A stretch of 64,000 nucleotides of DNA, from the NCBI GenBank assembly GCA_004346645.1, contig SMDA01000006.1, forward strand, positions 46,052-110,051. The letters run 5' to 3'. The notes below the pieces were generated by a model that was not told the DNA's origin, ran no database searches, and saw only the letters and a list, made by a program, of their open reading frames with translations. The translations under genes were made by a program, and so were the position numbers. Positions 1,477-64,000 of the stretch are shown here, in pieces. The number at the start of each line of letters is the position of its first letter. Within the stretch, counting starts at the first letter, position 1. The stretch is from Gulbenkiania mobilis. Lineage in GTDB: Bacteria > Pseudomonadota > Gammaproteobacteria > Burkholderiales > Chromobacteriaceae.

Positions 1477-2788
1477 CCTTCTGCAGCGACTGATCGCCAG
1501 CTGGCCGGAATCTGATTCCGGCCTTTCTGTTTTGGAGGTTGGCTTAAGTGGCGGCTGCGATTCGGTGGTGTTGCTCGACCTGTGCTGTCGCTGGCGGGCT
1601 GAAGGTGGGCCGCAGGTCACGGCCGTGCATGTGCATCATGGGCTCAGCCCCAATGCAGATGCGTGGGCAGACTTCTGTCGGGAGCTGTGTGCGAGTCGGG
1701 GGGTATCCCTGCGCATCGAACACGTCAGCGTAGCCATGGCGGCTGGCAAGAGTGTCGAAGCCGAGGCGCGCAGAGTGCGCTATGCGGCCTTTGCCCGTTC
1801 TTCGGCCAACCTTCTGGTGCTGGCGCATCACTGTGACGACCAAGTGGAAACCGTGTGGCTGCAGGCGCTGCGTGGCGGCGGCCCACGTGCCTTGGCGGCA
1901 ATGCCCGTCTGGCAGCCCGGCGTACACCCCCCGTTATGGCGGCCGCTGCTAGGTGTGCGCCGTGTCGAGATCGAAGCCTATGCCTGCGCGCACGGCCTCT
2001 CGTGGGTGGAGGACGAAAGCAACGACAGTCTCGTTTACCGTCGTAACTGGCTGCGACACACGCTCCTGCCTCAGATTGAAGCGGCCGTGCCGCACTACCG
2101 TAGCCATGCGGTGGGATTGGCGGCCCGTATGGCCGACGCGGCCTCCATCCTTGATGAAGTGGCGGCCGAAGATCTCCAACACGTTTATACAGATGAAGGC
2201 CTGAGCCTGGTAGGCCTGCGGAAGCTGTCGCCTGCTCGGCAGCGTAATCTGCTGCTGACCTGGCTGGAGGGCCTCCACCCGCAGGCCCGCCTGCCGCGGC
2301 CGGAAGAGTTGCGTGTCGTTCAGGGCATGCTGGCCGCGACCCAGCGCTGGCAGAGAGCCATGATGGACGGCTGGCTGGTTTCGGACGGGCAGACGCTACG
2401 TCACCTGAAGGCCGTGGGGTCGGAGAAGACCACTCGGCAAGAAGGGCCTGTGCCTTTACCAGAGGAGGTGCCACGTTGGCGGCCAGAGGGGTGGGGCGGG
2501 TGCATCAGCTGGCAACGCAAGCCGGGTGGGCTGAAGGAGGGCGTCTGGCACGAGGGAAGGGTGTGTCTGAAGCTGCGGGCCGGCGGCGAGCGCCTGCAGC
2601 AGAAGGTTGGCCGAAAGCCACTGAAAACCCTGTTTCAAGAGGCAGGGGTGCCGGCGGTGCTGCGTCCTGGCTGGCCACTGCTGTTTCTGGACGAGGAGCT
2701 TATTGCCGTCGTTGGGGTGGCGGTTTCGTCAGCGTGGCAGGATGACCGCTTAGGCTGGTGGCCCGAGTGGCAGCCCGATGCGTCCTGA
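1448..2788 (+). CDS. tilS: tRNA(Ile)-lysidine synthetase
   Basis: TilS converts the wobble cytidine of the minor tRNA-Ile(CAU) to lysidine, so that it reads AUA and is charged with isoleucine. The 446-residue protein has the PP-loop [10 protein letters not shown] near residue 34, which binds ATP, then [19 protein letters not shown] and RRNWLRH typical of the family, and a C-terminal tRNA-binding region ending near [12 protein letters not shown]. The start overlaps the end of accA. Two copies of the GGTTGGCCGAAR word lie inside the gene (1800-1811 and 2605-2616), in different frames. The gene ends at a bidirectional terminator. Confidence 0.95.
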
Positions 2789-2798
2789 TCGCCTCATG

Positions 2799-2826
2799 AA
2801 AAACGCCCGGAAACTTCCGGGCGTTT
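2799..2826. terminator. Bidirectional terminator, tilS / BAX-inhibitor gene
   Basis: The hairpin AAACGCCCGGAA / TTCCGGGCGTTT has a very short loop and is flanked by A on one side and T on the other. It lies between convergent genes and could stop transcription from both. Confidence 0.8.
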
Positions 2827-2853
2827 GAATGTAAGGCAAGTGCTTCGTTGTGG

Positions 2854-3546
2854 TCAGTCGCGGCTGTTGCCCGAGAAGGCGATCAGCAGCTGCAGCAGGC
2901 TGGAGAACAGGTTGTAAACGCTGATAAAGATCGAAAGCGTGGCGGAGATATAGTTGGTTTCGCCACCGTCCACCACGTTTTTCACTTCCCACATGATCAT
3001 CAGCGAGCTGAAGAGTGCGAAGGCAGCGGCAATGGTCAACTGCAGAGCCGGCAGGCGCAGGAAGATGTTGGCCACGACAGCGATCATCAGCACCACGGCC
3101 CCTACGGTCAGGAACTTGCCCAAGCCCGACAGATCGCGCTTCGTGGTGGTGCCGATTGCGGCCATTACGAAGAACACCGCAGCGGTGGCGCCGCCGGCGG
3201 TCATGATCAGTTGTGGGCCATTGGCCAAACTGAGGGCCACCTGCAGCAAGGGGCCAAGCAGCACGCCCATCACGAAGGTCAGCAAAAGTAGCAGCGCCAC
3301 ACCCACGCCACTGTCACGGTTCTTCTCAACGGCGAAGAAGAGTCCGTAGATCACTGCAAGCATCAGCAGGGTGGAGACGATCGGGCTACCCATCATGAAC
3401 GCAAAGCTCATGTTGGCGCCGACCGCGGCACCAATCACCGTGGGGATCAGCGAAATGGCCAGCAGCATGTAGGTATTGCGCAGTACCTTTTGGCGCACGC
3501 TGCCAACAGACGTCGTCTGGTACTGGGTTTGGAAGGTAGGCTGCAT
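2854..3546 (-). CDS. BAX inhibitor-1 / YccA family integral membrane protein
   Basis: The 230-residue protein is almost entirely hydrophobic, with about seven membrane segments, and belongs to the Bax inhibitor-1 (YccA/YbhL/TMBIM) family. E. coli YccA binds the FtsH protease and restrains it. The start is the ATG at 3546 (MQPTFQTQYQ), preceded by AGGAGA about 8 bases upstream. The open frame runs further back, into the tRNA-Leu gene, and that part is not coding. Visible family features are the N-terminal RNTYMLLAISLIPTVIGA helix and a late SVYNLFSSLLQLL segment. The exact role here is not deducible. Confidence 0.88.
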   Translation of the reverse strand: MQPTFQTQYQTTSVGSVRQKVLRNTYMLLAISLIPTVIGAAVGANMSFAFMMGSPIVSTLLMLAVIYGLFFAVEKNRDSGVGVALLLLLTFVMGVLLGPLLQVALSLANGPQLIMTAGGATAAVFFVMAAIGTTTKRDLSGLGKFLTVGAVVLMIAVVANIFLRLPALQLTIAAAFALFSSLMIMWEVKNVVDGGETNYISATLSIFISVYNLFSSLLQLLIAFSGNSRD

Positions 3547-7811: not shown

Positions 7812-10226
7812 ATGCCGCAACCCGCAGAATTTCCAGAAGACACCGTACTACCCCTTCTTCCATTGAGGGATGTGGTGGTCTTCCCGCACATGGTGATCCC
7901 GCTGTTTGTAGGCCGTACCAAGTCCATCCGTGCGCTCGAGATCGCCATGGACGAGGGCAAGCAGATCCTGCTGGTGGCCCAGCGCAGCGCCGCCAAGGAT
8001 GAGCCGGCTGCAGAAGATCTGCACACCGTTGGAACGGTGGCGACTGTGCTGCAGATGCTGAAGCTGCCCGACGGTACCGTGAAGGTCCTGGTCGAGGGAC
8101 GCCATCGCGCGCTCGTGGACCGCATCGAAGAGAATGAGGAGAGCTTTCTTGCCTCTATCCGCCAAGTGGAGAAAGACGAGGAAGACTCCACCGAGGCTGA
8201 GGCAATGCGTCGTGCATTGCTGGCCCAGTTCGAGAACTACGTCAAGCTGAACAAAAAGCTTCCGCCAGAAATTCTGTCTTCGCTGTCTGGTATCGAGTCT
8301 GCCGGACGCATGGCCGACACTGTGGCCGCCCATCTACCTCTTAAGATCGAACAGAAGCAGGAAATTCTGGAGATGTTCGAGCCGAAGGCACGCCTGGAAC
8401 ACCTGCTGTCGCAGTTGGAAAGCGAAATCGACATCCTGCAGGTGGAAAAGCGCATCCGTGGCCGGGTGAAGCGGCAGATGGAAAAGAGCCAACGCGAGTA
8501 CTACCTGAACGAACAGGTCAAGGCCATCCAGAAAGAGCTGGGGGAACTGGACGAAACCTCCGATCTTGATGAACTTGAGAAACGTATCCGCACCGCCGGC
8601 ATGAGCAAAGAAGCGCGCGACAAGGCCAATGGCGAGCTCAAGAAGCTACGCATGATGTCGCCGATGTCGGCCGAAGCCACGGTGGTGCGCAACTACATTG
8701 ATACCTTGGTCGAGCTTCCCTGGAAGAAGAAGACCAAGATTAACAAGGATATCGCCCAGGCCGAAAGCGTGCTGGACGAGGACCACTTTGGTCTGGAGAA
8801 GGTTAAGGAACGCATCATCGAATACTTGGCCGTACAGCAGCGGGTCGATCAACTCAAGGGGCCAATCCTGTGCCTGGTCGGACCGCCAGGGGTGGGCAAG
8901 ACCTCGCTGGGCGAGTCGATCGCCAAGGCCACCAACCGTAAGTTCATCCGCATGGCGCTGGGTGGCGTGCGAGACGAGGCTGAGATCCGGGGGCATCGAC
9001 GTACCTACATTGGGTCCATGCCGGGCAAGGTGCTACAGAGCATCACCAAGACCGGCGTGAAGAATCCGCTGTTCCTGCTGGATGAAGTGGACAAGATGGG
9101 CGCTGATTTCCGGGGTGATCCGGCTTCGGCACTGCTGGAAGTGCTCGATCCTTCGCAGAACCATGCGTTCGTCGACCATTACGCCGAAGTGGAGTACGAC
9201 CTCTCGGATGTGATGTTCGTTGCGACTGCCAACTCGCTGAACATTCCGCCGGCGCTGCTGGACCGGATGGAGATCATCCGGTTGTCCGGGTACACCGAGG
9301 AAGAAAAGGTCAACATCGCGCTTAAGTACTTGGTGCCCAAGCAGAAAAAGGCCAACGGGTTGGCCGAAGACGAGGTGGTGATCCAAGAGTCCGCAGTGCG
9401 CGATATCATTCGCTACTACACCAGAGAGGCCGGTGTACGCGGGCTGGATCGTGAGATCGCCAAGATCTGCCGCAAGGTAGTCAAGAGCCATGCGGAAGGC
9501 AAGACGCGTTCGGCAAGGACCACAGTAGGGGCCAAGAACCTGGACAAATATCTAGGTGTACGACGCTACGACTACGGCGTGGCGGAAGAGGAAAACCGCA
9601 TCGGCCAGGTCACCGGGCTTGCCTGGACCGAAGTGGGTGGTGAACTGCTGACGGTGGAAGCGGCTGCCTTGCCTGGCAAGGGCAACATCATCCGTACCGG
9701 CCAGCTGGGAGAGGTGATGCAGGAGTCGATTACCGCTGCCATGTCGGTGGTGCGTAGCCGTGCGCAGCGCATGGGCATCCGCGCCGACTTTTACGAAAAG
9801 CACGACATGCATATCCATGTCCCTGAGGGGGCCACCCCTAAGGATGGTCCCTCCGCGGGCATCGCGATGACCACGGCGCTGGTATCGGTACTGACGGGTA
9901 TTCCGGTGCGCAAAGATGTCGCCATGACCGGCGAGATCACTCTGCGGGGTGAGGTGCTGCCGATCGGTGGCCTCAAGGAGAAGCTGCTGGCCGCCCATCG
10001 CGGTGGCATCAAGCATGTGTTGATCCCCAAAGGCAACACCAAAGACCTGGCCGACATCCCGGGTAGTGTGCGACAAAAGCTGGAGATCCATCCTGTGAAG
10101 TGGATCGACGAAGTGCTGGCACTGGCGTTGGAACGCATGCCGGCGCCTCTGGAAGAGGGTGCTTCGAAGGATGTGGCACCGCCCGCCAACGGTCAGGAAC
10201 CTCCCGCTCCCCTCGTAACCCATTGA
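7812..10226 (+). CDS. lon: ATP-dependent protease Lon
   Basis: Lon degrades misfolded and short-lived regulatory proteins in the cytoplasm. The 804-residue protein has the N-terminal substrate domain ([19 protein letters not shown] at its start), a coiled region, the AAA+ module with Walker A GPPGVGKT near residue 359 and Walker B FLLDEVDK, and the serine/lysine protease domain with the catalytic Ser681 in PKDGPSAG. Length and order match the family. A sigma32-like promoter precedes it, and hupB follows under its own promoter. One GGTTGGCCGAAG word lies in frame as G-L-A-E at 9358-9369. Confidence 0.98.
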
Positions 10227-10901: not shown

Positions 10902-12737
10902 ATGTTCGAGTTTGTCGAGAACAACAAGTTAGCCATCAAGGTAATCCTGGGGGCGATTGCCCTGACTTTTGTCGGCTTTGGTGTCGGCAGTTACTCTTCC
11001 GTCGTGGAAGATCCCTATCTGGCCAAGGTCGGCCATGCCAAGATCGTAAAGCAGGATCTGGACCGTGCCCTGGAGGGGCGACCGGCTGACGCGGCAGTTC
11101 GTCAGGCGGTACTGGAAAACCTGATCCGTCAGGAGCTGCTGCTTGCCGCTTCCGGTGATGCGCATGTGGCCGTATCGCCGGAACAGCTGCGCCAGGCGAT
11201 CGCCTCCATTCCCGCCTTCCAGGACAACGGTAAATTCAGCCAGGCCAAGTACAAGGAATTCCTGGCCAACCGCTATCCTTCGCCTGCCGCTTTCGAAGCT
11301 CAGGTGCGCCGGGACCTGCTGCTGCAGGGGGCGCTGGCCCCGTTTGCCAACGAACAACTGGTGTCAGGCGCATTGCTGAGTCGCTTGGGACAAGTGATGG
11401 GCGAGACGCGTTTTGTGAGCCGTGCAGTGTTCAATCCGACGGATTACATGACGCAGGCCAAGGTGGACGATGCAGCGGTCAAAGCTTTCTACCAAGCCAA
11501 TACCAAGCGCTTCCAAGCGCCTGAAGCGGTGAGGCTCGAGTACGTCATGCTCACGCAGGAAGCCTTGGCTGAAGCGCAGACCGTCACGGATGCCGAAGTT
11601 CAGCAATACTATGACCAGCATCGCAATGAGTTGACAAGCGAGGAGCGGCGTGTGGCGCACATCCTTCTGGCTGTGCCCAAAGATGCTCCGGCGGCTGCCC
11701 GCGCCAAGGTGCGTGCCGAGGCTGAGGCCTTGCTCAAAGAGGTGCGCGCCAACCCCGGGCGCTTTGGCGAACTGGCCAAGGCCCGTTCGCAGGACCCGGG
11801 CTCTGCCGCCAACGGCGGGGACCTGGGCTTCTTTGGCAAGGGCATGATGGTTAAGCCCTTCGAGGATGTGGCCTTCCGCATGAAGCCGGGGCAGATCAGC
11901 GAGGTGGTGGAAACCGAGTTCGGTTATCACATCCTGCGCCTGGAAGAGGTCAAAGGCGCCGACCTTGCCAAGCTGAAGCCGGAAATCGAGATGAAGCTCA
12001 AGCGCCAGAAGGCGGCCGGACTCTTCCGCAGTCAGAACGAAAAACTGGCTGAGCTTGCCTATCAGCAGCCCAATTCGCTCAAGGCTGTGGCCGAAGGTCT
12101 GAAGCTGGAGATCCAGACCAGCGATTGGGTGGGGCGCGGCGCCCAAGGCGCGCAAGGCGTGCTGGCCAGTCCGAAGGTGCTGGAAGCAGCCTTCAGCGAT
12201 GATGTCATCAAGGGCAAGCACAACAGTGAGCCGGTGGAGGCTGCCAATGGCGTGATGGTGGTGGTGCGTGCCAAGGAGCATCGTCCGGCCCGCCAGCTGC
12301 CCCTTGCCGAAGTGCAGGACGCCATCCGCCAAGAGCTGTTGGCTAAGGAAAGCGCGAAGCTTGCCGAAAAGCAGGGTGAGGCCGTGTTGGCGGCCCTGCG
12401 CCAGGGTACTCAGCCCGCCGGTCTGCCGGCCTTCGGCCAACCCCTGAGTATTTCCAGGCGTGCCCTGGGGGATTTAGGTCTGAACGAAGTCCGTGCTGTG
12501 TTTGCAGTGCCCAGTGGCAAGTTGCCCGGCTATGCCGGCGTGAAGCGTGACAACGGCACTTATGTAATCTACCGGGTGGAAAAGGTAGAGGCCGGGCAGG
12601 CCAGCCAGCCGCAGGAAAAGGCCCAGCTCTCTCAGGTGGTATCCGAGATGTACGCCAACGCCCAGGTGGCGGCTTATCTGGAGTCTCTGCGGCAGAAGTA
12701 CCCGGTAGTCATGGGCAAGCTGGCCACCGAACAGTAA
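10902..12737 (+). CDS. ppiD: Membrane-anchored periplasmic chaperone / peptidyl-prolyl isomerase PpiD
   Basis: PpiD is anchored in the inner membrane near the SecYEG translocon and helps exported proteins fold. The 611-residue protein has a short cytoplasmic start (MFEFVENNKLAIK), one membrane helix at about residues 12-32, a SurA-like N-terminal region, and a parvulin domain with RVAHILL, NGGDLGFFGKGMMVKPFEDVAF split across residues 260-330 and GYHILRLEE. The ATG at 10902 is chosen because it starts right before the anchor helix; the frame extends upstream into the tRNA terminator. The gene order lon-hupB-ppiD is conserved in many proteobacteria. Confidence 0.93.
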   Translation: MFEFVENNKLAIKVILGAIALTFVGFGVGSYSSVVEDPYLAKVGHAKIVKQDLDRALEGRPADAAVRQAVLENLIRQELLLAASGDAHVAVSPEQLRQAIASIPAFQDNGKFSQAKYKEFLANRYPSPAAFEAQVRRDLLLQGALAPFANEQLVSGALLSRLGQVMGETRFVSRAVFNPTDYMTQAKVDDAAVKAFYQANTKRFQAPEAVRLEYVMLTQEALAEAQTVTDAEVQQYYDQHRNELTSEERRVAHILLAVPKDAPAAARAKVRAEAEALLKEVRANPGRFGELAKARSQDPGSAANGGDLGFFGKGMMVKPFEDVAFRMKPGQISEVVETEFGYHILRLEEVKGADLAKLKPEIEMKLKRQKAAGLFRSQNEKLAELAYQQPNSLKAVAEGLKLEIQTSDWVGRGAQGAQGVLASPKVLEAAFSDDVIKGKHNSEPVEAANGVMVVVRAKEHRPARQLPLAEVQDAIRQELLAKESAKLAEKQGEAVLAALRQGTQPAGLPAFGQPLSISRRALGDLGLNEVRAVFAVPSGKLPGYAGVKRDNGTYVIYRVEKVEAGQASQPQEKAQLSQVVSEMYANAQVAAYLESLRQKYPVVMGKLATEQ

Positions 12738-13684: not shown

Positions 13685-15094
13685 ATGAACGAACTGATAG
13701 ACACCGTGATGGACAGCGCAACGCTGGCCATCCGCACCCCGCCGCATTCTGTCGAGGCCGAGCAATCCGTGCTAGGTGGCCTGCTGCTCGACAACAGTGC
13801 CTGGGACAAGATTGCAGACGTCGTGGCCGAAGGCGACTTCTACCGGCAGGATCACCGGCTCATCTACAAGGAGATCGCCAAACTCATCGAGCAATCACGG
13901 CCGGCCGACGTAGTGACGGTGGCCGAAAGCCTCGACAAGAGCGCTGAGCTGGTGAATGCCGGCGGGCTGGCCTATCTGGCCTCGCTGGCGCAAAACACGC
14001 CTTCGGCTGCCAACATTCGCCGCTATGCCGAGATTGTGCGTGAGCGCTCGATCATGCGCCAGCTTGCGCAGGTGGGGACCGAAATCGCTGAGTCGGCCTA
14101 TGCGCCGATGGGTCGGGATGCCGCCCAGCTGCTGGACGAAGCAGAGGGCAAGGTGTTCCAGATCGCCGAATCCACCGCCAAGTCCAAGCAGGGCTTCCTG
14201 GAAATGCCCAACCTGCTCAAGGAGGTGGTGGAGCGCATCGACATGCTTTACAGCCGCGACAACCCCGACGAGGTGACCGGCATCCCCACCGGTTTCATCG
14301 ATCTGGATAGCAAGACCTCCGGCTTGCAGCCTGGTGACCTGATCATCGTGGCTGGGCGTCCGTCGATGGGCAAGACGGCCTTCTCGATGAATATTGCCGA
14401 GCATGTGGCCGTGGAGCAGCACTTGCCGGTGGCCGTGTTCTCGATGGAGATGGGGGGTGCCCAGCTGGTGATGCGTATGCTCGGGTCGGTCGGTCGGCTG
14501 GACCAGCACGTGCTACGCACCGGCAAGCTGCAGGACGAGGACTGGAGCAAGCTGACCTACGCCATCGGCAAGCTCTCCGATGCGCCGATGTACATCGATG
14601 AGACCCCCGCTCTGACTGCGCTGGAACTGCGCGCCCGGGCGCGCCGCCTGGCCCGCCAGCACGGCGGAAAGCTGGGCCTGATCGTCATCGACTATCTGCA
14701 GCTGATGTCCGGCTCTGGCCGGGGCGACAACCGAACCGCGGAGCTGGGCGAGATTTCCCGTGGTCTGAAGGGGCTGGCGAAGGAGTTGCAGGTACCGGTG
14801 ATCGCACTGTCGCAGCTCTCGCGCGCAGTGGAACAGCGTCCCAACAAACGCCCGATGATGTCCGACCTACGTGAATCCGGCGCGATCGAGCAGGATGCCG
14901 ACCTGATCATTTTCATGTACCGGGACGAGTACTACAATCCGGACACCCCGGAAAAGGGGTTGGCCGAAGCGATCATCGGCAAGCACCGGAACGGCCCCAC
15001 GGGCACGGTGCGGCTGGCGTTCCTCGGACATTACGCCAAGTTCGACAATGCCGCTCTGCATGGTGCGCAGGGCTGGGCGGACAATGATTCCTAA
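13685..15094 (+). CDS. dnaB: Replicative DNA helicase DnaB
   Basis: DnaB is the hexameric helicase that opens the replication fork. The 469-residue protein has the N-terminal domain (PPHSVEAEQSVLGGLLLD) that contacts primase and the RecA-like C-terminal domain with Walker A GRPSMGKTAF near residue 224 and LIVIDYLQLMSG. Length equals that of the E. coli protein. The open frame starts at 13544, but the first 47 residues look non-coding and the ATG at 13685 begins a normal N-terminus. The ribosome site is weak. GGTTGGCCGAAG occurs at 14958-14969. Confidence 0.97.
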   Translation: MNELIDTVMDSATLAIRTPPHSVEAEQSVLGGLLLDNSAWDKIADVVAEGDFYRQDHRLIYKEIAKLIEQSRPADVVTVAESLDKSAELVNAGGLAYLASLAQNTPSAANIRRYAEIVRERSIMRQLAQVGTEIAESAYAPMGRDAAQLLDEAEGKVFQIAESTAKSKQGFLEMPNLLKEVVERIDMLYSRDNPDEVTGIPTGFIDLDSKTSGLQPGDLIIVAGRPSMGKTAFSMNIAEHVAVEQHLPVAVFSMEMGGAQLVMRMLGSVGRLDQHVLRTGKLQDEDWSKLTYAIGKLSDAPMYIDETPALTALELRARARRLARQHGGKLGLIVIDYLQLMSGSGRGDNRTAELGEISRGLKGLAKELQVPVIALSQLSRAVEQRPNKRPMMSDLRESGAIEQDADLIIFMYRDEYYNPDTPEKGLAEAIIGKHRNGPTGTVRLAFLGHYAKFDNAALHGAQGWADNDS

Positions 15095-16042: not shown

Positions 16043-16076
16043 ACGGGCAGCCCACAGGCTGCCCGTTTTCTTTTCG
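16043..16076. terminator. Terminator with an uptake-like word at its end
   Basis: ACGGGCAGCC and GGCTGCCCGT form a stem followed by TTTCTTTTC. The last bases run into the word TTTCGGCCAACC (16072-16083). It separates the hydrolase from the convergent rnk gene. Confidence 0.85.
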
Positions 16077-16108
16077 GCCAACCCTTGGACTGGGGCGGTA
16101 TCGGCCGG

Positions 16109-20036: not shown

Positions 20037-20040
20037 CGTG

Positions 20041-21351
20041 TCAGGCTTCGATGGCCGAGGCGGACAGGGTGTGCAGGTGATGTGCCATCGCCTCACGCAC
20101 CTTTAGGGCCGCGGAGCTTTCCAGCCGGGCAGCATCCCAGTTGAGATTGAGCGTCATCTCGCCGCGCCAGGTGCTGACCGCGGTGAAAAGCGGCTGGTAG
20201 GGCATCGGGCACAGTGCAAAAGACAGACGTTCTACCGTCAGCCCCTCCAGCAGGGCGGGACCTTCGATCACGCCCACATTGCTGACGAGCGAGGACGGCG
20301 GCGTGGCGAGCACTGCCTCGCCAAACGCGGCCAGGCCGGCGTCGGTGGCGGGCAGGGCAATCAGCGGCGCCATCATCTCATACAGCAGATGGCCGTCTCC
20401 GCGCTCGCGCTGCAGACGGATGTCATCGCTCAATGTCCGGGCCAGGTCCTTGAGGTCGGCGCCCGGCATCACGTGCGCGTTGGTGGTGAGCAGGCTGACA
20501 TAAAAGCCCGGCGTGGCCGGACTGACCGGCTCCACCAAGCTGGCGCGCAGATCCACCGGGCTCGTCAGCGACAGGACGTGCGCGGCGGCATCCCCAAACG
20601 TCTGACAGAGTGCCAAAAGTTGCGCAGCACCGATCAGACCGTGCACCGTGGTGCCTGCCGCGCGGGCGCAGCGTTGCAGGGCGCTGGTCGTCGGAGCCGA
20701 CAACAGGATGCGCGCCAGAGCGGGGTGGGCCGGGTTGGCCGAAGGCCGGTGCGCTGGCAGCGTCTCGGGGCGGCCGTGGCGCTTGAGCGCGGCCTTGCGT
20801 GCCTGACGCACCGACTGCGCCGCCTCACCGCGAGCCTCCGCCTGCCACTGTGGCGGATAAAGCGCATGCAGGGGCGGGTGGAGCGGATGTGTGGTCTCTA
20901 CCTGCTCGCCAGCCGCAGCTGCGAGCACCTCTTGGAGGAAAGCCATGGCCGACCGGCCATCGGCAATGGCGTGGTGGAAGGTCAGGGCCAGCCAGCCTCC
21001 GCCTTCGGCGGGCAACCACAGTGCACGGATCAGTGGCGCTTCGTTGGGCTGAAAGCGCCAGGCCAGCGTGGCGGCCAGCGCATCCTCGCGGGCGGTGGTG
21101 ACCTGTACCGCCAAGGGGATGGGTGTGACGTCCGGCACGAATTCCAGGTCGCCGGCCGCGGACCGGTCGATGCGCACCCGGGCCATCGGATGGCAGGCCT
21201 GTACACGGTCGAGTGCAGCCTTGAGCGTGGCGGGCTCCACGTGACCGGCCAGTTCGGCCAGGACAAGGAAGTTCATGGTGGAGAGCCGGTCCAGCATCCA
21301 GAAGAAGCGTTCGGCCGGGTCCAGCGGGCGGGCAGGGGCGGTAACGGGCAT
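20041..21351 (-). CDS. Condensation-fold acyltransferase (wax-ester/alcohol acyltransferase-like)
   Basis: The 436-residue protein has the catalytic motif HHAIADG near residue 132, typical of the chloramphenicol-acetyltransferase/condensation superfamily that includes wax ester synthases, Pap proteins and alcohol acetyltransferases. It starts with RPLDPAERFFWMLDRL and has a late SNVGVIEGP, both seen in this group. Substrate cannot be told. The start at 21351 lies 19 bases after the GST gene on the same strand, so the two are probably one transcript. An ATG at 21399 is an alternative that would overlap that gene. Confidence 0.75.
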   Translation of the reverse strand: MPVTAPARPLDPAERFFWMLDRLSTMNFLVLAELAGHVEPATLKAALDRVQACHPMARVRIDRSAAGDLEFVPDVTPIPLAVQVTTAREDALAATLAWRFQPNEAPLIRALWLPAEGGGWLALTFHHAIADGRSAMAFLQEVLAAAAGEQVETTHPLHPPLHALYPPQWQAEARGEAAQSVRQARKAALKRHGRPETLPAHRPSANPAHPALARILLSAPTTSALQRCARAAGTTVHGLIGAAQLLALCQTFGDAAAHVLSLTSPVDLRASLVEPVSPATPGFYVSLLTTNAHVMPGADLKDLARTLSDDIRLQRERGDGHLLYEMMAPLIALPATDAGLAAFGEAVLATPPSSLVSNVGVIEGPALLEGLTVERLSFALCPMPYQPLFTAVSTWRGEMTLNLNWDAARLESSAALKVREAMAHHLHTLSASAIEA

Positions 21352-23721: not shown

Positions 23722-24243
23722 TTAAGGATCAGCAGGCTGGCGGGCAGACGAAGCAGGCTGAGACATGTCCACGCTGCGCGGGGGGCGCCGGGTGAGTGCG
23801 AGAAAGCGTGCCAGTGATCGTGGGGCAAAGCGAGGGGTTCGGTATTGATAAGCGGATGGCATAGCACGGCTTCGGCCAACCAGAGCCGGCGGTTCAACAC
23901 TATCTCCACGGCACTGTCCGGATCGTTGAAGGCCGCCAGCAGCGTGACGGCCACCGGGGTCAGACCCCGAATGATGCAGGAGCCCGTCCGCCGAGGCCAG
24001 GCGCAGCCTCTTTACTTCCAGCACATCGGAAAGTAGCCGCAGGTCGGCAGTGGCAGTGGCGGGAAGCGCGCGCAGGAAATGGCGCCGTCCCTTGACCTCG
24101 CAGAGGAACAGGTTCTTGGTTTCGGCCCCCGGTAGTTCCGGCGCGAGGTGCCACGCGTCCTCGCAGGTGTAGACCGGCGGATGCTCGAAGCGGCTGTACG
24201 TCAGCCCATGCAGAGGCAGAAAGCGGGCCAGGGCGTCTTTCAT
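23722..24243 (-). pseudogene. YbaK/prolyl-tRNA deacylase-like gene, frameshifted
   Basis: The N-terminal half, from MKDALARFLPLHGLTYSRFEH to VLEVKRLRLASADGLLHH, reads in one frame. The C-terminal half (TPVAVTLLAAFNDPDSAVEIVLNRRLW, split, and HPLINTEPLALPHDHWHAF) reads in another from about 23975 on. Removing one T there joins them. The last residues may return to the first frame near 23800. Such proteins hydrolyse mischarged tRNA-Pro (YbaK/ProX type). This could be a real decay or a base-calling error. A CTTCGGCCAACC word lies within (23870-23881). Confidence 0.7.
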
Positions 24244-27994: not shown

Positions 27995-28018
27995 GTTGGC
28001 CGAAACCTTCGGCCAACC
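27995..28018. repeat. Inverted pair of the TTGGCCGAA word
   Basis: GTTGGCCGAA, a 3-base loop (ACC) and TTCGGCCAAC form a perfect 10-base stem downstream of frmB. The right arm is the full CTTCGGCCAACC (28007-28018). It may work as a terminator, although no T run follows. Confidence 0.8.
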
Positions 28019-39770: not shown

Positions 39771-40309
39771 AGCCTGCGCCCCCGTGCTTCCTGCCAAGGA
39801 AGATCCAGGCCCTGCGGCAGGGCTGCAGCCGCTGCACCGGTACAGAACACCTGCCACCTTTCCTGCGCACGGTGCTCTCCTGCAGGCTTCGGCCAACCTT
39901 TCGGTTTCCGCCCGACTTCTGCCCGCCCTGCGCTCTCATCCGCTATAGCACGCCCCATCCGGCTTGCCGGGCTTCACTACGCCAAGCCCAACGAATTGTC
40001 GGGTGGTGCGATGTTTTCTGCTCCTGTCATTTCTTTGCCGAAACACAAACAAACTTCAGAATGGCGGTTTTAAAAGACACTACTGTCCCAAAAAGAAAAC
40101 CGCATGGCGCATTGATGTCTTTTTGCGTTGTTTAAAGCAAAATTAGGTTTTTAGAGCCGGGTCTCGGCAAATGATATAGCGTAGCTATATGATTGAATCC
40201 GGAACGGCAGTTTAATGGTTATTTATAAGATGATAAATACGTAGATTCAGCAATGACGGACCTGTACGCATCTGGAATTATGATCCGGATCTTTTTTTAA
40301 GAAACCGTG

Positions 40310-47560: not shown

Positions 47561-47587
47561 AGGTTGGCCGAAGGCTTCGGCCAACCT
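47561..47587. repeat. Perfect inverted pair of GGTTGGCCGAAG between nrdA and nrdB
   Basis: GGTTGGCCGAAG (47562-47573), one base, then CTTCGGCCAACC (47575-47586), with a further A/T pair outside. The perfect arms can form a hairpin in the nrdA-nrdB transcript. There is no long T run, so it may act as an mRNA stabiliser or attenuator rather than a full terminator. Confidence 0.85.
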
Positions 47588-47628: not shown

Positions 47629-50499
47629 TTACTGGCAGGCCTCGCAGTCCGGGTTGTCGATGCTGCAGAACTTGGCATCGGTGGCCGGGGTATTGTCCAC
47701 CGTGGCGGCTGGGGCTGCGGCTGTCGGTGCGCTGCTGCCCACACCACCGGCAGCCGGTACGGCGTTCAGCTCGCCACCGCGGCCAGTGGATTTCTCGGCA
47801 TTGGAGGCGGCCAAGGTGCGCAGGTAGTAGGTGGTCTTCAGGCCCTTCACCCACGCATGCTTGTACAGTTCGTCCAGCTTTTTCCCCGATGCGCCGGCCA
47901 TGTAGAGGTTGAGGCTCTGTGCCTGGTCGATCCACTTCTGGCGGCGGCTGGCCGCTTCCACCAGCCATTTCGGGTCGATCTCGAAGGCAGTGGCATAGAT
48001 GGCCTTCAGCTCGGACGGAATGCGGTCGATGCGCCCCAGGCTGCCGTCAAAGTATTTCAGGTCGGCGACCATCACTTCGTCCCACAGGCCCAGCTTCTTC
48101 AGATCGCGCACCAGATGTTCGTTGGTGACGGTGAATTCGCCGGACAGGTTGGATTTGACGAACAGGTTCTGGTACGTGGGCTCGATGCTGGCCGACACGC
48201 CAATGATGTTGGCGATGGTGGCAGTCGGGGCGATGGCCAGGACGTTGGAGTTGCGCATACCGTGCTTGGCAATACGCTCGCGCAAGGCGTTCCAGTTCAT
48301 GCGCTCGGTGCGGTCCACCTCCACATAGCCGCCGCGCTCGGCCGCCAGGAGGTTGATGCTGTCCTGCGGCAGGATGCCGCGATCCCACAGGCTACCTTTG
48401 TAGGAGGGGTAGCGGCCCCGCTCTTCGGCCAGCTCGGTGGAGGCCCAGTAGGCGTAGTACGCCACCATTTCCATGGATTCGTCGGCGAAGTCCACGGCCG
48501 CGTCGGAGGCATAGGCGATGCGTTTGGCGTGCAGGCAGTCCTGGAAGCCCATGATGCCCATGCCCACCGGGCGGTGCTTCAGGTTGGAATTACGCGCCTT
48601 TTTCACCGGGTAAAAGTTGATGTCGATGACGTTGTCCAGCATGCGCAGTGCGGTCTTCACGGTGCGCTGCAGCTTTTCCTGATCCAGCGAGCCGTCCGCC
48701 TTGAGGTGCGCGGCCAGGTTGACCGAGCCCAGATTGCACACTGCGATCTCGTCATCGTTGGTGTTGAGCGTGATCTCGGTGCAGAGGTTGGAGCTGTGCA
48801 CCACGCCCATATGCTGCTGCGGGCTGCGGATGTTGCACGGGTCCTTGAAGGTGATCCACGGGTGGCCGGTTTCGAACAGCATGGTCAGCATCTTGCGCCA
48901 CAGGCTTAGCGCCGGGATCTGCTTGAATACCTTCAGCTCGCCGCGCTTGCCCTTGGCCTCGTAGGCGGTGTAGGCCTTTTCGAAGGCCTGGCCGTAGAGG
49001 TCGTGCAGATCCGGCGTCTCGGAGGGGGAGAACAGGCTCCACTCGCCCCCTTCCATCACACGTTTCATGAACAGGTCCGGAATCCAGTTGGCGGTGTTCA
49101 TGTCGTGGGTACGGCGGCGGTCGTCACCAGTGTTCTTGCGCAGCTCGAGAAATTCCTCGATGTCGGCGTGCCAGGTTTCCAGATAGGCGCACACCGCGCC
49201 CTTGCGCTTGCCGCCCTGGTTGACGGCCACGGCGGTGTCGTTGACCACCTTCAGGAACGGCACCACGCCCTGCGACTTGCCGTTGGTGCCCTTGATGTGG
49301 CTGCCCATGGCGCGCACTGGCGTCCAGTCGTTGCCCAGGCCGCCGGCAAACTTGGACAGCAGTGCGTTGTCCTTGATGCCTTCGTAGATGCCGTCCAGGT
49401 CGTCGGCGATCGTCGTCAGGTAGCAGCTGGACAGCTGGCTGCGGCGGGTGCCAGAGTTGAACAGCGTGGGGGTGGACGACATGAAGTCGAAACTGGAGAG
49501 GATGTTGTAGAACTCGATGGCGCGCGCCTCGCGCTCTACCTCGTTCAGGGCCAGGCCCATCGCCACGCGCATGTAGAACGCCTGCGGCATCTCGATGCGG
49601 GTGCCATCCACGTGCAGGAAGTAGCGGTCGTACAGGGTCTGCAGGCCGAGGTAGCCGAACTTGAGGTCACGCTCGGCATCGAGCGCCGCGCCCAGTCGCG
49701 CCAGGTCGAACTCGCCCAGACGCTCGTCCAGCAGTTCGGCCTCGATGCCCTTGCGGATGTAGCTGGGGAAGTAGTGCGCGTACTGGATGCGCATTTCCTC
49801 CTGGCTGACGGCCTCGTCCAGGATTTCCAGGCGGATATTGTTCAGCAGCAGGCGGGCGGTGACGTAGTCGTAGGCCGGGTCCTGCTCGATCATGGCGCGG
49901 GCGGCCAGGATGGAGGATTTGTTCACCTCCTCTTCCGAGACGCCGTCATAAATATTCTTTAGCGTCTCGGTCAGGATGGCGTCCACGTCGGTTTCGGCCA
50001 ACCCTTGGCAGGCGGACTCGATGGTGGCGCGCAGACGGGCCACGTCCAGCGGCATCTTGCGGCCATCCTTGCGCACTACGTTGATCTGGATCTGCGTCAG
50101 CGCCTCGCCCCGGGCGGCGCGCTCCTGCGCGCGCTGTTCGCGGTACAGCACGTAGGCGCGGGCCACATCATGTTCGCCGGCACGCATCAGTGACAGCTCG
50201 ACCTGGTCCTGGATGTCTTCGATGTGGATGGCGCCGCCTTCGGGCTTGCGGCGCATCAGGGCGTTCACCACCTGTTCGGTCAGGTGTGCCACCTTGTCGC
50301 GGATGCTGGCGGAGGTAGCGCTCTGCTGGCCCATCACGGCCAGGAAGGCCTTGGTGACGGCAATGGAGATTTTCACCGGCTCAAAAGGCACCACTGCGCC
50401 GTTGCGGCGGATGGTCTTGTACTGGCTATAGTCGGCTTCCGGGGCGGCGGAGCGGCCGAGTTCGGCGGCGATCTGCCCATCAAAGGTCGTCGGTTGCAT
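47629..50499 (-). CDS. nrdA: Ribonucleoside-diphosphate reductase, alpha subunit
   Basis: NrdA reduces ribonucleoside diphosphates to deoxy forms. The 956-residue protein has an N-terminal ATP-cone (IRRNGAVVPFEPVKISIAV) for allosteric control, SSCYLTTI and SSNLCTEITL with active-site Cys, Asn and Glu, NVLAIAPTATIANIIG split, and a C-terminal CSIDNPDCEACQ whose cysteines pass electrons from thioredoxin. A proline/alanine-rich linker precedes that tail. The ATG at 50499 has GAGG upstream; the longer frame is not coding. An NrdR-like box lies upstream. Confidence 0.96.
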   Translation of the reverse strand: MQPTTFDGQIAAELGRSAAPEADYSQYKTIRRNGAVVPFEPVKISIAVTKAFLAVMGQQSATSASIRDKVAHLTEQVVNALMRRKPEGGAIHIEDIQDQVELSLMRAGEHDVARAYVLYREQRAQERAARGEALTQIQINVVRKDGRKMPLDVARLRATIESACQGLAETDVDAILTETLKNIYDGVSEEEVNKSSILAARAMIEQDPAYDYVTARLLLNNIRLEILDEAVSQEEMRIQYAHYFPSYIRKGIEAELLDERLGEFDLARLGAALDAERDLKFGYLGLQTLYDRYFLHVDGTRIEMPQAFYMRVAMGLALNEVEREARAIEFYNILSSFDFMSSTPTLFNSGTRRSQLSSCYLTTIADDLDGIYEGIKDNALLSKFAGGLGNDWTPVRAMGSHIKGTNGKSQGVVPFLKVVNDTAVAVNQGGKRKGAVCAYLETWHADIEEFLELRKNTGDDRRRTHDMNTANWIPDLFMKRVMEGGEWSLFSPSETPDLHDLYGQAFEKAYTAYEAKGKRGELKVFKQIPALSLWRKMLTMLFETGHPWITFKDPCNIRSPQQHMGVVHSSNLCTEITLNTNDDEIAVCNLGSVNLAAHLKADGSLDQEKLQRTVKTALRMLDNVIDINFYPVKKARNSNLKHRPVGMGIMGFQDCLHAKRIAYASDAAVDFADESMEMVAYYAYWASTELAEERGRYPSYKGSLWDRGILPQDSINLLAAERGGYVEVDRTERMNWNALRERIAKHGMRNSNVLAIAPTATIANIIGVSASIEPTYQNLFVKSNLSGEFTVTNEHLVRDLKKLGLWDEVMVADLKYFDGSLGRIDRIPSELKAIYATAFEIDPKWLVEAASRRQKWIDQAQSLNLYMAGASGKKLDELYKHAWVKGLKTTYYLRTLAASNAEKSTGRGGELNAVPAAGGVGSSAPTAAAPAATVDNTPATDAKFCSIDNPDCEACQ

Positions 50500-50873: not shown

Positions 50874-51613
50874 CAGGTCTCCAGCCAGATCAGGCTGGCC
50901 ATGCGGCCGCTGGTGCCGTCGCGTCGGTAGGAGTAGAAGCGTTCGCGGTCGATGACGGTGCAGAAGTCGCCACCGTAGACGGCGTCCACTCCAAGACGCC
51001 CCAGCCGCTTACGGGCCAAGGCGTAGATGTCGGCGAGGTATTTGTCGTCACCGATGGGAGTGAAGGCACTGGCTGCCGACGCGTCGCGCTCTAAAAAGGC
51101 CGCGCGTACTTCGGCGCCCACTTCGAAGGCGTCCGGTCCGATGGCCGGGCCCAGCCAAGCCAGTACTTCTCCCAGTGCGACCTGCATGGCCGCCACGGTC
51201 GCTTCAATGACTCCGTTGCATAGCCCGCGCCACCCGGCGTGGGCGGCAGCCACCACGGTGCCCGCGCGGTCGCACAGCAGTACCGGCAGGCAGTCCGCCG
51301 TCATGACCACACTCACCAGCCCGGGCGCATGGGCAACGCTGGCGTCCGCTTCGGGCGGAGTGCCGCCAGTGTAGCGGGCCAGATCAAGCACCTGGGTGCC
51401 ATGCACCTGCTGCAGCCATACGGGTTCGGCCGGAAGATGACTGCGTAGCCGAGCGCGGTTGGCCGAAACATGGACGGGGTCGTCGCCTACGTGATCGCCC
51501 AGGTTCAGACCGGCCCAAGGGCCTTGGCTGACGCCGCCTGCGCGGGTAGTGATGAGCGTGCGCACCGTAGCAGGGGCTGGCCAGTCCGCCTGCAACCACT
51601 CATTCACGGACAT
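50873..51613 (-). CDS. pgeF: Peptidoglycan editing factor / multicopper-like purine nucleoside phosphorylase (YfiH)
   Basis: PgeF removes wrongly incorporated serine from peptidoglycan precursors in E. coli, and related proteins act on purine nucleosides. The 246-residue protein has TTRAGGVS, QQVHG, MTADCLPVLL and AAHAGWRGL with the metal-binding His/Cys/His. The start at 51613 is preceded by an unusually complete Shine-Dalgarno (GGAGGTGAT) inside the end of rluD, with which it overlaps by 14 bases. The pair rluD-pgeF is common in proteobacteria. Confidence 0.92.
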   Translation of the reverse strand: MSVNEWLQADWPAPATVRTLITTRAGGVSQGPWAGLNLGDHVGDDPVHVSANRARLRSHLPAEPVWLQQVHGTQVLDLARYTGGTPPEADASVAHAPGLVSVVMTADCLPVLLCDRAGTVVAAAHAGWRGLCNGVIEATVAAMQVALGEVLAWLGPAIGPDAFEVGAEVRAAFLERDASAASAFTPIGDDKYLADIYALARKRLGRLGVDAVYGGDFCTVIDRERFYSYRRDGTSGRMASLIWLET

Positions 51614-53487: not shown

Positions 53488-53524
53488 ACAGGCTTCGGCC
53501 AACCCTGCCCATCGGCGGGGCATG

Positions 53525-57540: not shown

Positions 57541-57580
57541 TGAAAAAGAAAAAGGTGGACATCGGTCCACCTTGTTTTTC
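57541..57580 (-). terminator. Terminator of glnB
   Basis: On the minus strand AAGGTGGAC, a CGAT loop and GTCCACCTT are followed by TTTCTTTTTC. An uptake-like CTTCGGCCAACC word (57580-57591) stands directly between it and the glnB stop. Confidence 0.88.
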
Positions 57581-57599
57581 TTCGGCCAACCTGCCTGGT

Positions 57600-58071: not shown

Positions 58072-61000
58072 ATGTCGCACATTCTCAAGCTGCGGGGCGG
58101 AGTTGCTCTGTCCCGGTTCCGTCTCGATAAACTTCAGGAGCGCGCACGCGAAGCCGGCCTGCCGGAGCTGGCCATTGCCAGCGAGTACTGGCACTTTGCC
58201 GAATGCACGCGTGCCTTGGCCCCGGAAGAGCAGGCGGTACTGGACAAGCTGCTGACCTACGGCGAAGCGCCTCTGATCACCGTGCCCACCGGCGAGATGT
58301 TCCTGGTGACCCCTCGCCTGGGTACGCTCTCGCCCTGGGCCTCCAAGGCGACCGACATTGCCGTGCATTGCGGCCTGGAGGCCGTGGCGCGCATCGAGCG
58401 CGGCATCGCTTACCACGTCACCCCGACCCGGCCGCTGTCCGACGCGGAGCGGCGCGTGTTGACGGGCCTGCTGCACGACCGCATGACGGAAACGGTGCTG
58501 GCTTCCCTGGACGATGCCGATCGCCTCTTCACCCACATCGATCCGCAGCCGATGTCTACCGTGGACATCCTCGGCGGTGGACGTGCGGCACTGGCTTCGG
58601 CCAACCTTTCGCTGGGCCTGGCCCTGTCCGAGGACGAGATCGACTACCTGGTCGAGAACTTCCAGCGCCTGGGCCGCAATCCCAGCGACGTCGAACTGAT
58701 GATGTTCGCGCAGGCCAACTCCGAGCATTGCCGCCACAAAATCTTCAACGCCGAGTTCGTGATCGACGGCGAGAAGATGGCCAAGTCCCTGTTCCGCATG
58801 ATCCGTGACACCCACGACGCCCACCCGCAGGGCACGCTGGTGGCCTACAAGGACAACGCCTCGGTCATCGAAGGCGGCTTCATCGACCGCTTCTACCCGA
58901 CCCCGGGCAGTCATGTCTACGGCTACACCACCGAGCCGACGCACATCCTGATGAAGGTGGAAACCCACAACCACCCGACGGCCATCTCGCCCTTCCCGGG
59001 CGCCTCCACCGGCTCCGGCGGCGAGATCCGCGACGAGGGGGCCACCGGGCGTGGCTCGCGCCCCAAGGCAGGCCTGACCGGCTTTTCGGTGTCCAACCTC
59101 AACATTCCCGGCTTCAGGCAGCCTTGGGAGACTTACAGTGATACCCAGGCCGAGTACGGTCGCCCCGGTCGTATCGCCTCCGCCCTGGAAATCATGCTCG
59201 AGGGGCCGATCGGCGGCGCCGCCTTCAACAATGAATTCGGACGTCCCAACCTTGCCGGTTACTTCCGCACCTTCGAGGAAGTGGTCGACGGCGAAATGCG
59301 CGGTTATCACAAGCCGATCATGCTCGCCGGCGGCGTGGGAAACATTCAGCAGCAGCAGATCCACAAGAACGAGATCCCGGAAGGCGCACTACTGATCCAG
59401 CTGGGCGGCCCCGGGCTGCTGATCGGCCTGGGCGGGGGGGCGGCCTCCTCGATGGACACCGGCGCCAACAGCGAGAATCTGGACTTCGACTCTGTGCAAC
59501 GGGGGAACCCGGAAATTCAGCGCCGCTGCCAGGAAGTGATCGACCGCTGCTGGCAGATGGGCGAACACAACCCGATCCAATCGATTCATGACGTCGGCGC
59601 GGGCGGCCTGTCGAATGCTTTCCCCGAGCTGGTGAACGATGCCGGCCGTGGCGCCATCTTCGAGCTGCGCAAAGTGCATCTCGAGGAAAAGGGCATGAGC
59701 CCGATGCAGATCTGGTCCAACGAGTCGCAGGAACGTTATGTCCTGGCCATCCTGCCAGACGATCTCGACACCTTCCGAGCCCTGTGTGAGCGCGAGCGCT
59801 GCCCGTTCGCCGTGCTCGGCGTGGCTACCGACGACGGCCACCTGCAAGTGCGTGACGACGTGTTCGATAACAAACCGGTGGACATGCCGCTGGAAGTGCT
59901 GCTGGGCAAGCCACCGCGCATGACCCGCGACGTGACCACGGTGACGCCGGAGTTCCGGGTGTTCGACGCCTCGCGCTTCCCGCTCAAGGAAACCGCCTAC
60001 CGTGTGCTGCGCCTGCCGTCGGTGGCCGACAAGAGCTTTCTGATCACCATCGGCGACCGCACCGTGGGTGGCATGACCGCACGCGACCAGATGGTGGGCC
60101 GCTGGCAGGTACCGGTTGCAGATGTGGCCGTAACCGCCATGGGTTTCAACTCCTATCGTGGCGAAGCCATGGCCGTGGGCGAACGCACCCCCGCCGCACT
60201 GTTTAATGCGCCTGCATCCGGCCGCATGGCGGTTGGCGAGGCGCTGACCAATCTGGCAGCCGCCTATGTCGGCCACATTGAAAATGCGAAGCTTTCGGCC
60301 AACTGGATGGCTGCTGCCGGTCATCCGGGCGAGGATGCCAACCTCTATCGCACCGTGGAGGCGGTTTCCACGTTCTGCCAGGAAATCGGCGTCAGCATCC
60401 CGGTGGGCAAGGATTCGCTGTCGATGAAGACGGTATGGGAAGAGGCCGGAGAGAAGAAGGCGGTGACGGCGCCGCTGTCGCTGATCATTTCCGCCTTCGC
60501 TCCTGTTGAAGACGTACGCAAGACAGTGACGCCGGCACTGGTGGAAGACAAGGATACTGACCTGATCCTGATCGACCTGGGCTACGGCCGCTGCCGTCTG
60601 GCAGGCTCCGCCTACGCTCAGGTATGGAAGTGGATGAACGGGCGCACACCGGACATCGAGAGTCCCAGCCAGCTTGTCACCTTCTTCAATACCATCCAGA
60701 CGCTGCTGCGCGACAACCTGCTGCTGGCCTACCACGACCGCTCCGACGGTGGTCTCTTCACCACCTTGGCCGAAATGATGTTCGCGGGCCACGTGGGGGT
60801 TTCCATTGACCTGCAGGAGCTGGTCGTTGAACGCCGCAACACCCAGCGCATCATCGATGATTTTGTGCAGCCGACGCCGGACGCGGCGACCCATGCGCGC
60901 ATCATGCGCGTGCTCTTCAATGAAGAACTTGGGGCCGTACTGCAGGTTAAGAAGGCCGACACTGCCGAGGTGATCGCCCGCTTCATGAAGGCCGGCATCG

Positions 61001-62523: not shown

Positions 62524-62682
62524 GTCGTCCTTGTATGCTGGGAGGCGGATGGTGCGCGCTGCCTTTGGCAAGGTCAATACATCGGCGGTGATATTTCGAA
62601 TTCATAATACATTTCCATAGAATAACCATATGGGTTGGCAGGGTTTCATGGTATTGTTCGGCATTGTCTTAGCCGCGCACAC

Positions 62683-62696
62683 TTGACTCAAATCAA
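62683..62696. promoter_or_regulatory. FNR-like site upstream of the globin sensor gene
   Basis: TTGACTCAAATCAA matches the FNR/ANR consensus TTGATNNNNATCAA at nine of ten fixed positions, 45 bases before the start of the sensor gene. Oxygen control would fit a haem-based sensor. Confidence 0.5.
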
Positions 62697-62740
62697 TTTG
62701 CGTGCATTGCCGCCCTTGGCGGTCCTTGACTGAACAACGC

Positions 62741-64000
62741 ATGAGCATCCAATCCCTGCCACCGCTCGAATCCCTATGCCGTTATGTCGGTTTGCGTGCA
62801 CAGCATCTGGCGCTGCTCGCCGAGCATGCCGAACAGCTGCTGGGCAACCCCGATGCGCTGGGCAAGACTTTCTATTGGTATCTCCTCAAGAACACTGAGA
62901 CTGCCGACTCGCTGCTGGCCCTACCGTCCGAGCGGCTGAACGGACTGGTAACCTCCCAGGTGCGCTACTTCGGCGCCTTGCTGCGGCAGCCGCTGGACGT
63001 GGCGCAGGCAGAGCGGGTACGGGCCTTGGGCGCGCTCCATCACCGGCTGGGGATTAGCATGGTGTGGATGACCGGAGCATACGAGCGTTATCTCATCCAT
63101 ACCCAAGAGCGGATCGAGGACCTGGACCTGCCTCCGCCCTCGCGCCGGCTTCTGGAGGAGGCGGTACGCAAGCGGGTGCTGGTGGACATGATGCTGCAAC
63201 TGCAGGGTTACCAGCGTGGCCTAGACAGCTACGCCGAGGCCCAGCAGCAGTATCTACGTTCCATGTCACGGCTGTATGCGCTTTCCAGCAGTGTCAGTCT
63301 GGCGATCGTGCATGCGACCGACCGACGCGCCCTGTTCGATGCCATCTGTCGGGTATGCATCGAAGAAGGCGGATTCCGCTACGCGATGATCGGCTGGGTG
63401 GACGAGGCCAGCGAGCTCGTAGAACCGGTCTCCGCCGCCGGCGCCGACCTTGGCGACTTTGCCGACCGGATCCATGTGTCGCTCCGGGCCGATACGGCCT
63501 TCGGCCAAGGGCCGACCGGGCGTGCGCTGCGTTCGGGTCAGATCGAGGTGGTCAATAACGTCTGTGAGGACAGCTCGCTGGAGCCGTGGCGGCCATTGCT
63601 GGAGGCGCAGGGCATCGGCAGCATGCTGGTGGCGCCGCTGATGCTGCACGGACGGGCCGCCGCTTCGCTCGCCGTCTATGCGCACGAGCCCGATTTCTTC
63701 GATACCTCCAAGCGGCAGCTGATGGCCACACTGGCCAGCGAGATCGGCCATGCTCTGGAGCGCTTGGACGCAGTGGAGCGCAGCACGCGCGCCGAACAGA
63801 AGGTGGCCTACCTGACCAGCTACGATGCGCTGACGGGTCTGCCGAACCGGCAGCTGATGCTGGATCGTATCGACCAGTTGCTGATGTATGTGCACGAAGG
63901 CCACGAAGTGGTGGTACTCACATTGGTCGTCGAAGGCTTTGACGAGATCAATGCCCGGATCGGTCATGCCCGCGGCGACATGGTGCTGTGCGAAGTGGCC
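62741..64000 (+). CDS. Globin-coupled sensor with GAF and GGDEF domains (5' part; runs off the window)
   Basis: The frame is open from the ATG at 62741 to the window end (420 codons seen). Residues about 10-165 resemble the protoglobin sensor fold, with FYWYLLKNTETADSLL and a proximal-histidine region ALHHRLGISMVW near residue 100. A GAF-like domain follows (VSLAIVHATDRRALFDAICR at its start, GIGSMLVAPLML). At about residue 362 a diguanylate cyclase domain begins (YDALTGLPNRQLMLDRID). The GG(D/E)EF active site lies beyond the window, so activity cannot be judged. An EAL domain may follow. Confidence 0.85.
   Translation, partial: MSIQSLPPLESLCRYVGLRAQHLALLAEHAEQLLGNPDALGKTFYWYLLKNTETADSLLALPSERLNGLVTSQVRYFGALLRQPLDVAQAERVRALGALHHRLGISMVWMTGAYERYLIHTQERIEDLDLPPPSRRLLEEAVRKRVLVDMMLQLQGYQRGLDSYAEAQQQYLRSMSRLYALSSSVSLAIVHATDRRALFDAICRVCIEEGGFRYAMIGWVDEASELVEPVSAAGADLGDFADRIHVSLRADTAFGQGPTGRALRSGQIEVVNNVCEDSSLEPWRPLLEAQGIGSMLVAPLMLHGRAAASLAVYAHEPDFFDTSKRQLMATLASEIGHALERLDAVERSTRAEQKVAYLTSYDALTGLPNRQLMLDRIDQLLMYVHEGHEVVVLTLVVEGFDEINARIGHARGDMVLCEVA

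Follow-up and report, generated by a model that had tools for sequence, protein, structure and literature searches.

The stretch of Gulbenkiania mobilis DNA analysed here (the window, 64,000 nucleotides in full) carries a 12-base word, GGTTGGCCGAAR, that recurs within and between genes. This word is considered below as a DNA uptake sequence (DUS), with a ComP-type minor pilin as its candidate reader. The window contains 21 exact copies (9 plus, 12 minus), against a mean of 0.01 in 100 dinucleotide shuffles, none of which reached 21; the 9-base core, TTGGCCGAA, occurs 29 times. These values reproduce the counts of a preliminary description, which had reported 21 exact copies with the same strand distribution, about 29 cores and a large excess over expectation. 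The end of the span given there (1800..63510) stems from a core-only copy at 63500-63508, the last exact 12-mer being located at 58595-58606. The 21 copies are distributed as follows.

1800..1811, minus strand: copy GGTTGGCCGAAG within a tilS-like gene
2605..2616, plus strand: copy GGTTGGCCGAAA within the tilS-like gene that also holds copy 1800..1811
9358..9369, plus strand: copy GGTTGGCCGAAG within lon (endopeptidase La)
12431..12442, minus strand: copy GGTTGGCCGAAG within a peptidylprolyl-isomerase-like gene
14958..14969, plus strand: copy GGTTGGCCGAAG within dnaB (replicative helicase)
16072..16083, minus strand: copy GGTTGGCCGAAA, intergenic, about 27 bp past the end of a GreA/Rnk-type gene
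20733..20744, plus strand: copy GGTTGGCCGAAG within an acyltransferase-like gene (family match under the cut-off)
23870..23881, minus strand: copy GGTTGGCCGAAG within a tRNA-editing domain frame (23722-24312, minus)
28007..28018, minus strand: copy GGTTGGCCGAAG, intergenic, about 64 bp past an esterase gene; on the opposite strand, 27996-28004 is a core-only copy
31212..31223, minus strand: copy GGTTGGCCGAAG within a LysR-type regulator gene
33885..33896, plus strand: copy GGTTGGCCGAAG within a gene (about 32411-33961 on the minus strand) for a transporter of the major facilitator superfamily (MFS)
36998..37009, plus strand: copy GGTTGGCCGAAG within sbcC
37682..37693, plus strand: copy GGTTGGCCGAAA within sbcC
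39887..39898, minus strand: copy GGTTGGCCGAAG, intergenic, about 254 bp past sbcC
47562..47573, plus strand: intergenic, left arm of two inverted copies of the word that form a pair about 56 bp past the end of nrdA
47575..47586, minus strand: right arm of the inverted pair beyond nrdA; complementary to the left arm, with which it would form a hairpin
49992..50003, minus strand: copy GGTTGGCCGAAA within nrdA
51457..51468, plus strand: copy GGTTGGCCGAAA within a polyphenol-oxidoreductase (Cu-oxidase_4) gene
53493..53504, minus strand: copy GGTTGGCCGAAG, intergenic, 6 bp past a gene for a YfiO-type lipoprotein
57580..57591, minus strand: copy GGTTGGCCGAAG, intergenic, ahead of purL
58595..58606, minus strand: copy GGTTGGCCGAAG within purL (phosphoribosylformylglycinamidine, FGAM, synthetase)

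The source genome (G000) comprises 2,870,308 bases in 21 contigs, with a GC content of 63.7%. The 12-mer is present 847 times in it (427 forward, 420 reverse), and the reversed, uncomplemented control word twice (1 + 1). Since GGTTGGCCGMA is found 962 times and GGTTGGCCGCA 5 times, the 11-mer GGTTGGCCGAA occurs about 957 times, i.e., one per 3 kb. The counts that follow were obtained on a sample of 461 kb, i.e., the window and 20 other stretches. A Markov count, as proposed in the preliminary description, places GGTTGGCCGAA as the most over-represented 11-mer, with 150 copies for 1.4 (order-4 model) or 0.6 (order-3 model) expected. Its flanks show a weak preference for A/G before and G/A after, and almost no information past four bases. 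Orientation does not follow the GC skew, which was used here, the origin not being mapped (78 vs. 72, p 0.68; Spearman 0.06, p 0.78). Confinement to the window and a strong strand bias, the two outcomes regarded beforehand as contrary to an uptake signal, are thus both absent.

One-change variants of the 11-mer number 76, and 54 of them differ at positions 1 or 2. Single changes at positions 5-11 stay at background level (10 for about 8 expected), which argues for a core that is presently maintained. One 20-kb stretch (L052, G000:C5:100001-120000; GC skew −0.092) has zero copies for 6.5 expected from the density of the sample. A prophage-like region, with genes for phage baseplate J and minor tail proteins, it fits the expectation that acquired DNA is free of the word.

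Genes were called with a purpose-written, simple and crude gene finder (406 genes, 87.4% of the sample coding). Inside called genes are 104 of the 150 copies and outside are 46, for an expected share of 12.6% (p 5e-9). At least two genes of the window escaped the gene finder, so 46/150 is an upper figure, and missed genes inflate the 12.6% share too; the intergenic excess is therefore likely real and its size uncertain. In the window itself, 9 of the 21 copies were placed outside genes, two of which fall inside missed, Pfam-supported genes, i.e., the MFS transporter gene (copy 33885) and the tRNA-editing domain gene (copy 23870). The recount thus gives 7 intergenic copies and not the eight first announced. 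For 28 of the 46 intergenic copies of the sample, the nearest gene end is a stop codon within 60 bp. Seven pairs of opposite copies are separated by 3-7 bases (11-mer measure; 14 of the 150 copies), all outside called genes, for 0.5 expected. These close inverted pairs, including 47562-47586 beyond nrdA, would form hairpins.

The intragenic copies occupy all six frames, in agreement with the several frames noted previously, and are read chiefly as Leu-Ala-Glu (47 of 104) or Ser-Ala-Asn (36). The use of TTG for leucine, reported as atypical and as a sign of selection on DNA, is confirmed: 90 of the 209 Leu-Ala-Glu tripeptides of the sample are written TTG GCC GAA, and codon use predicts 3.8. 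Likewise 52 of 61 Ser-Ala-Asn tripeptides are written TCG GCC AAC (6.6 expected). It follows from the codon choice at both tripeptides that selection acts on the DNA. The proteins bear a footprint of the word: Leu-Ala-Glu is found 209 times for 113 expected by composition (1.8x), and Ser-Ala-Asn is enriched 2.7x. A DNA word present once per 3 kb thus shapes protein sequence.

The comparison with related genomes suggested at the outset was made on the 61 genomes, from 10 genera, of a family called Chromobacteriaceae here, which groups Crenobacter with Pseudogulbenkiania; in the NCBI taxonomy, Pseudogulbenkiania belongs to Chromobacteriaceae and Crenobacter to Neisseriaceae. It reveals three lineage dialects, distinguished from one another by one or two bases. 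One of them is enriched in each of 23 genomes: AA (GGTTGGCCGAA) in 8, AG (GGTTGGCCGAG) in 2 and CA (GGTTGGCCGCA) in 13. Besides the source genome, GGTTGGCCGAAR is abundant in G009 (622 copies), Pseudogulbenkiania ferrooxidans 2002 (G001, 584), an uncultured Aquitalea metagenome-assembled genome (MAG; G005, 579), P. subflava DSM 22618 (G010, 466), Neisseriaceae bacterium JH1-16 (G002, 394), Crenobacter oryzisoli (G011, 100) and a Pseudogulbenkiania MAG (G018, 93); the remaining 53 genomes have at most 18 copies. GGTTGGCCGAG occurs 1,030 times in G012 and 729 times in C. luteus (G003), and at most 53 times elsewhere (C. oryzisoli). GGTTGGCCGCA is found 1,141-1,510 times in each of the 13 genomes of genus g5, and at most 22 times in the others. 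Genus g5 would presumably fit Vogesella.

None of the three dialects is enriched in the other 38 genomes (9/10 of genus g6, 19/19 of g7, 6/6 of g8 and 4/4 of g9). Pooled samples of these genera (137, 273, 75 and 82 kb for g6, g7, g8 and g9, respectively) contain no DUS-like word of comparable excess. Other words are over-represented in them, and a sparse dialect may be hidden in the word-free genomes since the pools are of limited size or consist in part of orthologous loci. Among 291 genomes of the same order outside the family, GGTTGGCCGMA, the word covered by this search (the AG dialect not included), reaches at most 30 copies, and the genome at the top has 27 in its own control. The Aquitalea MAG is the sole g6 genome of 10 with the word; it either retained the ancestral state or is a misplaced genome. 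In G012, eight copies of GGTTGGCCGAAG, foreign to its own AG dialect, lie on one strand at C1:1158708-1165803, two pairs being 42 bases apart; this cluster is perhaps located inside a repetitive gene.

A candidate reader is encoded in the source genome. Its ComP-type pilin scores 53.6 bits with ComP_DUS (PF16732; cut-off 27.3), and ComP is both its best sequence match (PDB 2NBA first, 6.5e-9) and its best fold match. The gene adjoins pilY1 and ends a cluster coding for GspH/FimT-type, pilin, PilW, PilX and PilY1 proteins. The mature pilin has two Cys, forming one C-terminal pair, and the chain stops three residues past the second one. Extra helix cysteines exist in few relatives (G005, G071, G076), at places other than those of the neisserial disulfides. 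The ComP-type pilin is present in all 23 dialect genomes. The ComP query also matches four Chromobacterium records, and the ComP of C. sphagni is identical to that of G060 (genus g7). PF16732 alone was dropped as a marker because all 61 genomes of the family match it. The source genome has also ComEC and DprA genes, and its comP, comEC and dprA matches are free of stop codons.

Two residues of the pilin track the word. The alignment comprises 46 pilins, i.e., those of the 23 word-bearing genomes and 23 of the 34 found in word-free genomes (11 left out); residues are numbered as in P0001. Residue 68 is Lys or Arg in 22 of the 23 pilins from word-bearing genomes and in 1 of the 23 from word-free genomes, and the same figures hold for Asp at residue 103 (44/46 concordant in each case). 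In the structural model, residue 68 would sit in the alpha1-beta1 loop and residue 103 in the beta1-beta2 loop. The most telling case is the Aquitalea MAG, which has the word and the Asp, vs. its g6 congeners, which have neither, though this MAG is without Lys. In G009, a genome with 622 copies, two ComP-like pilin genes stand in tandem (C3:1518747-1519636), the more ComP-like one being without Asp.

Taken together, the word is very probably an uptake word of DUS type read by the ComP-type minor pilin. The proposal of the preliminary description, an uptake signal belonging to another lineage, is the reading best supported by a word that is genome-wide, balanced between strands, unrelated to GC skew in the sample, used in all frames, paired in intergenic hairpins, missing from the one sampled prophage-like stretch and split into dialects, with a ComP-type pilin in every dialect genome. 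Pili bearing this pilin would bind extracellular DNA holding the word, and their retraction would draw such DNA in. ComEC would then pass one strand, and DprA and recombination would put it in the place of the resident copy. Preferential uptake of word-bearing DNA would in turn maintain the word and let it spread as a label of kinship.

Several observations weigh against this reading. The ComP-type pilin is matched in 34 of the 38 word-free genomes as well, so that alone it is no predictor of the word, and nine of the ten rows of the profile used came from word-bearing genomes. The ComEC and DprA families are not specific either, since of 14 control genomes 12 match the former and 10 the latter. 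The Pseudogulbenkiania MAG, with only 93 copies, has zero in its 50-kb sample. A genome of the same order and another family (G216) contains 19 copies of GGTTGGCCGMA for 0 in the reversed control, which is unexplained. The loop residues have exceptions (G005, with Thr at 68; G009, without Asp; G058; G063). Moreover, the ComP tree shows only about three changes between presence and absence of the word, so that shared ancestry could yield the pattern of these residues, and the pairs test cannot reach significance because just three pairs are available, one of them on well-supported branches. The known system also differs in two respects. The dialects of Frye et al. 2013 all keep CTG at +6 to +8 together with A at +10, and changes of CTG nearly abolish transformation of N. 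meningitidis (PMC3630211); +6 to +8 reads CCG in all three dialects here. According to PMC12061091, neisserial ComP has two disulfides, which are crucial for DUS binding and one of which holds the DD-region; only one C-terminal Cys pair is present here.

The word might be of DUS type and read by another pilin, e.g., the PilE-like pilin of C4:334855, a FimT-type protein or another minor pilin. This is unlikely, though ten GFxxxE-type pilins are encoded in the source genome (two minor-pilin clusters with four each, and two elsewhere), two pilins exceed the ComP_DUS cut-off, and FimT is reported to mediate DNA uptake elsewhere (PMC8897410). The second minor-pilin cluster (C4:334000-341700) codes for a PilY1 domain and for the four-cysteine, PilE-like pilin, which outscores the ComP-type pilin for ComP_DUS (59.3 bits, the top PF16732 score). 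This pilin was set aside as a receptor because its 17 PDB matches are other pilins, with no ComP chain among them. In addition, the ComP-type pilin is the sole PF16732 match at E 0.001 in two word-enriched genomes, Neisseriaceae bacterium JH1-16 and C. oryzisoli. That the word is a relic, which once guided uptake and no longer works in the source species, is slightly less probable still. Loss is plausible since sister genera keep a ComP-type pilin without the word (the Chromobacterium group, 9/10 g6 genomes), and C. oryzisoli and the Pseudogulbenkiania MAG have few copies. Decayed copies, however, have not built up at the core positions beside the 150 exact ones, and the matches of the three competence genes contain no stop codon.

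A motif linked to replication or recombination, such as Chi or the FtsK orienting polar sequences (KOPS), would also be genome-wide, and copies of the window lie in dnaB, sbcC and nrdA among others. This explanation is very improbable: it is disfavoured by the strand tests, both over the genome and by GC skew, and close inverted pairs between genes and lineage dialects one or two bases apart do not fit it. Almost negligible is the probability of an artefact at the level of protein or structure, arising from a frequent Leu-Ala-Glu peptide, from a hairpin element of terminators or from a small mobile repeat. Nearly half of the intragenic copies are indeed read as this tripeptide, and 14 of 150 copies belong to close pairs that would form hairpins. 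However, the use of six frames and the atypical codons lead to rejection of a word driven by a peptide, and together with flanks almost without information past about four bases they exclude the artefact as a whole.

Returning to the DUS-type word and its ComP-type reader, it is rather probable, with less assurance than for the reading itself, that Chromobacteriaceae and their nearest kin own an uptake code that is free of CTG, has three dialects and is read by a one-disulfide ComP without DD-region. The partnership of DUS and ComP would then predate the Neisseriaceae that bear dialects, and the CTG core would not be universal in it. In Chromobacterium and most Aquitalea, the lack of the word would have its counterpart in a ComP-type pilin that is kept but is short of a basic and an acidic residue for DNA contact. 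According to PMC12061091, the way in which DUS are read by ComP is unresolved, no structure of the complex having been available in 2025. The present data offer a comparative set for the reading residues: 23 natural pairs of dialect and candidate receptor in three spellings, and 34 genomes with a ComP-type pilin and no word. They put to the test two working rules, namely the need for the CTG core and the need for both disulfides, and they open the preference for self-DNA to study beyond host-bound Neisseria.

Aside from the word, a single reading frame of the window (40398-41723) has three tandem matches to the Rid family (TIGR00004).

Among known systems, Chi and KOPS are oriented along replication. 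The present word is, like them, short and frequent on the chromosome, but it shows no orientation bias. The uptake signal sequences (USS) of Pasteurellaceae have a core of AAGTGCGGT type and T-rich flanks. The kind of function proposed is the same; the word differs (the top word here is GGTTGGCCGAA), as does the class, and there is no T-rich flank.

Neisserial DUS are the closest. Common to both are a word of 10-12 bp, at least hundreds of copies, both orientations, locations inside and between genes, inverted pairs, dialects following genera and a ComP-type pilin in word-bearing genomes. AG-simDUS equals the word at 9 of 12 positions; this likeness is suggestive only, since 209 of 20,000 shuffled words match it at least as well. 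GGTTGGCCGCA resembles AA-king3DUS, whose letters are given in PMC10715097, by the C that precedes its final A. The A at +10 is kept in the AA and CA dialects and is lacking in the AG dialect. Frye et al. list five genomes of this neighbourhood without obvious DUS, including Lutiella nitroferrum 2002 (PMC3630211), which is Pseudogulbenkiania ferrooxidans according to NCBI, i.e., the genome with 584 copies here. No open PMC paper presenting the word as an uptake sequence was found; GTTGGCCGAA may be listed among the over-represented 10-mers in Table S1D of Frye et al., a supplement outside this search. The pilin shares with ComP (PDB 5HZ7, 2NBA, 2M3K; PF16732) the predicted pilin helix and five strands, and an F-K..S..WP.LP stretch that the model places in the alpha1-beta1 loop. 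It differs by its place at the close of the GspH/FimT-type to PilY1 cluster, and the disulfide-held DD-region has no counterpart in it. Because the CTG core and the two disulfides with their DD-region, which define the neisserial system, are replaced here by a CCG core and a single Cys pair, the word and its candidate reader are filed as a variant of DUS-ComP.

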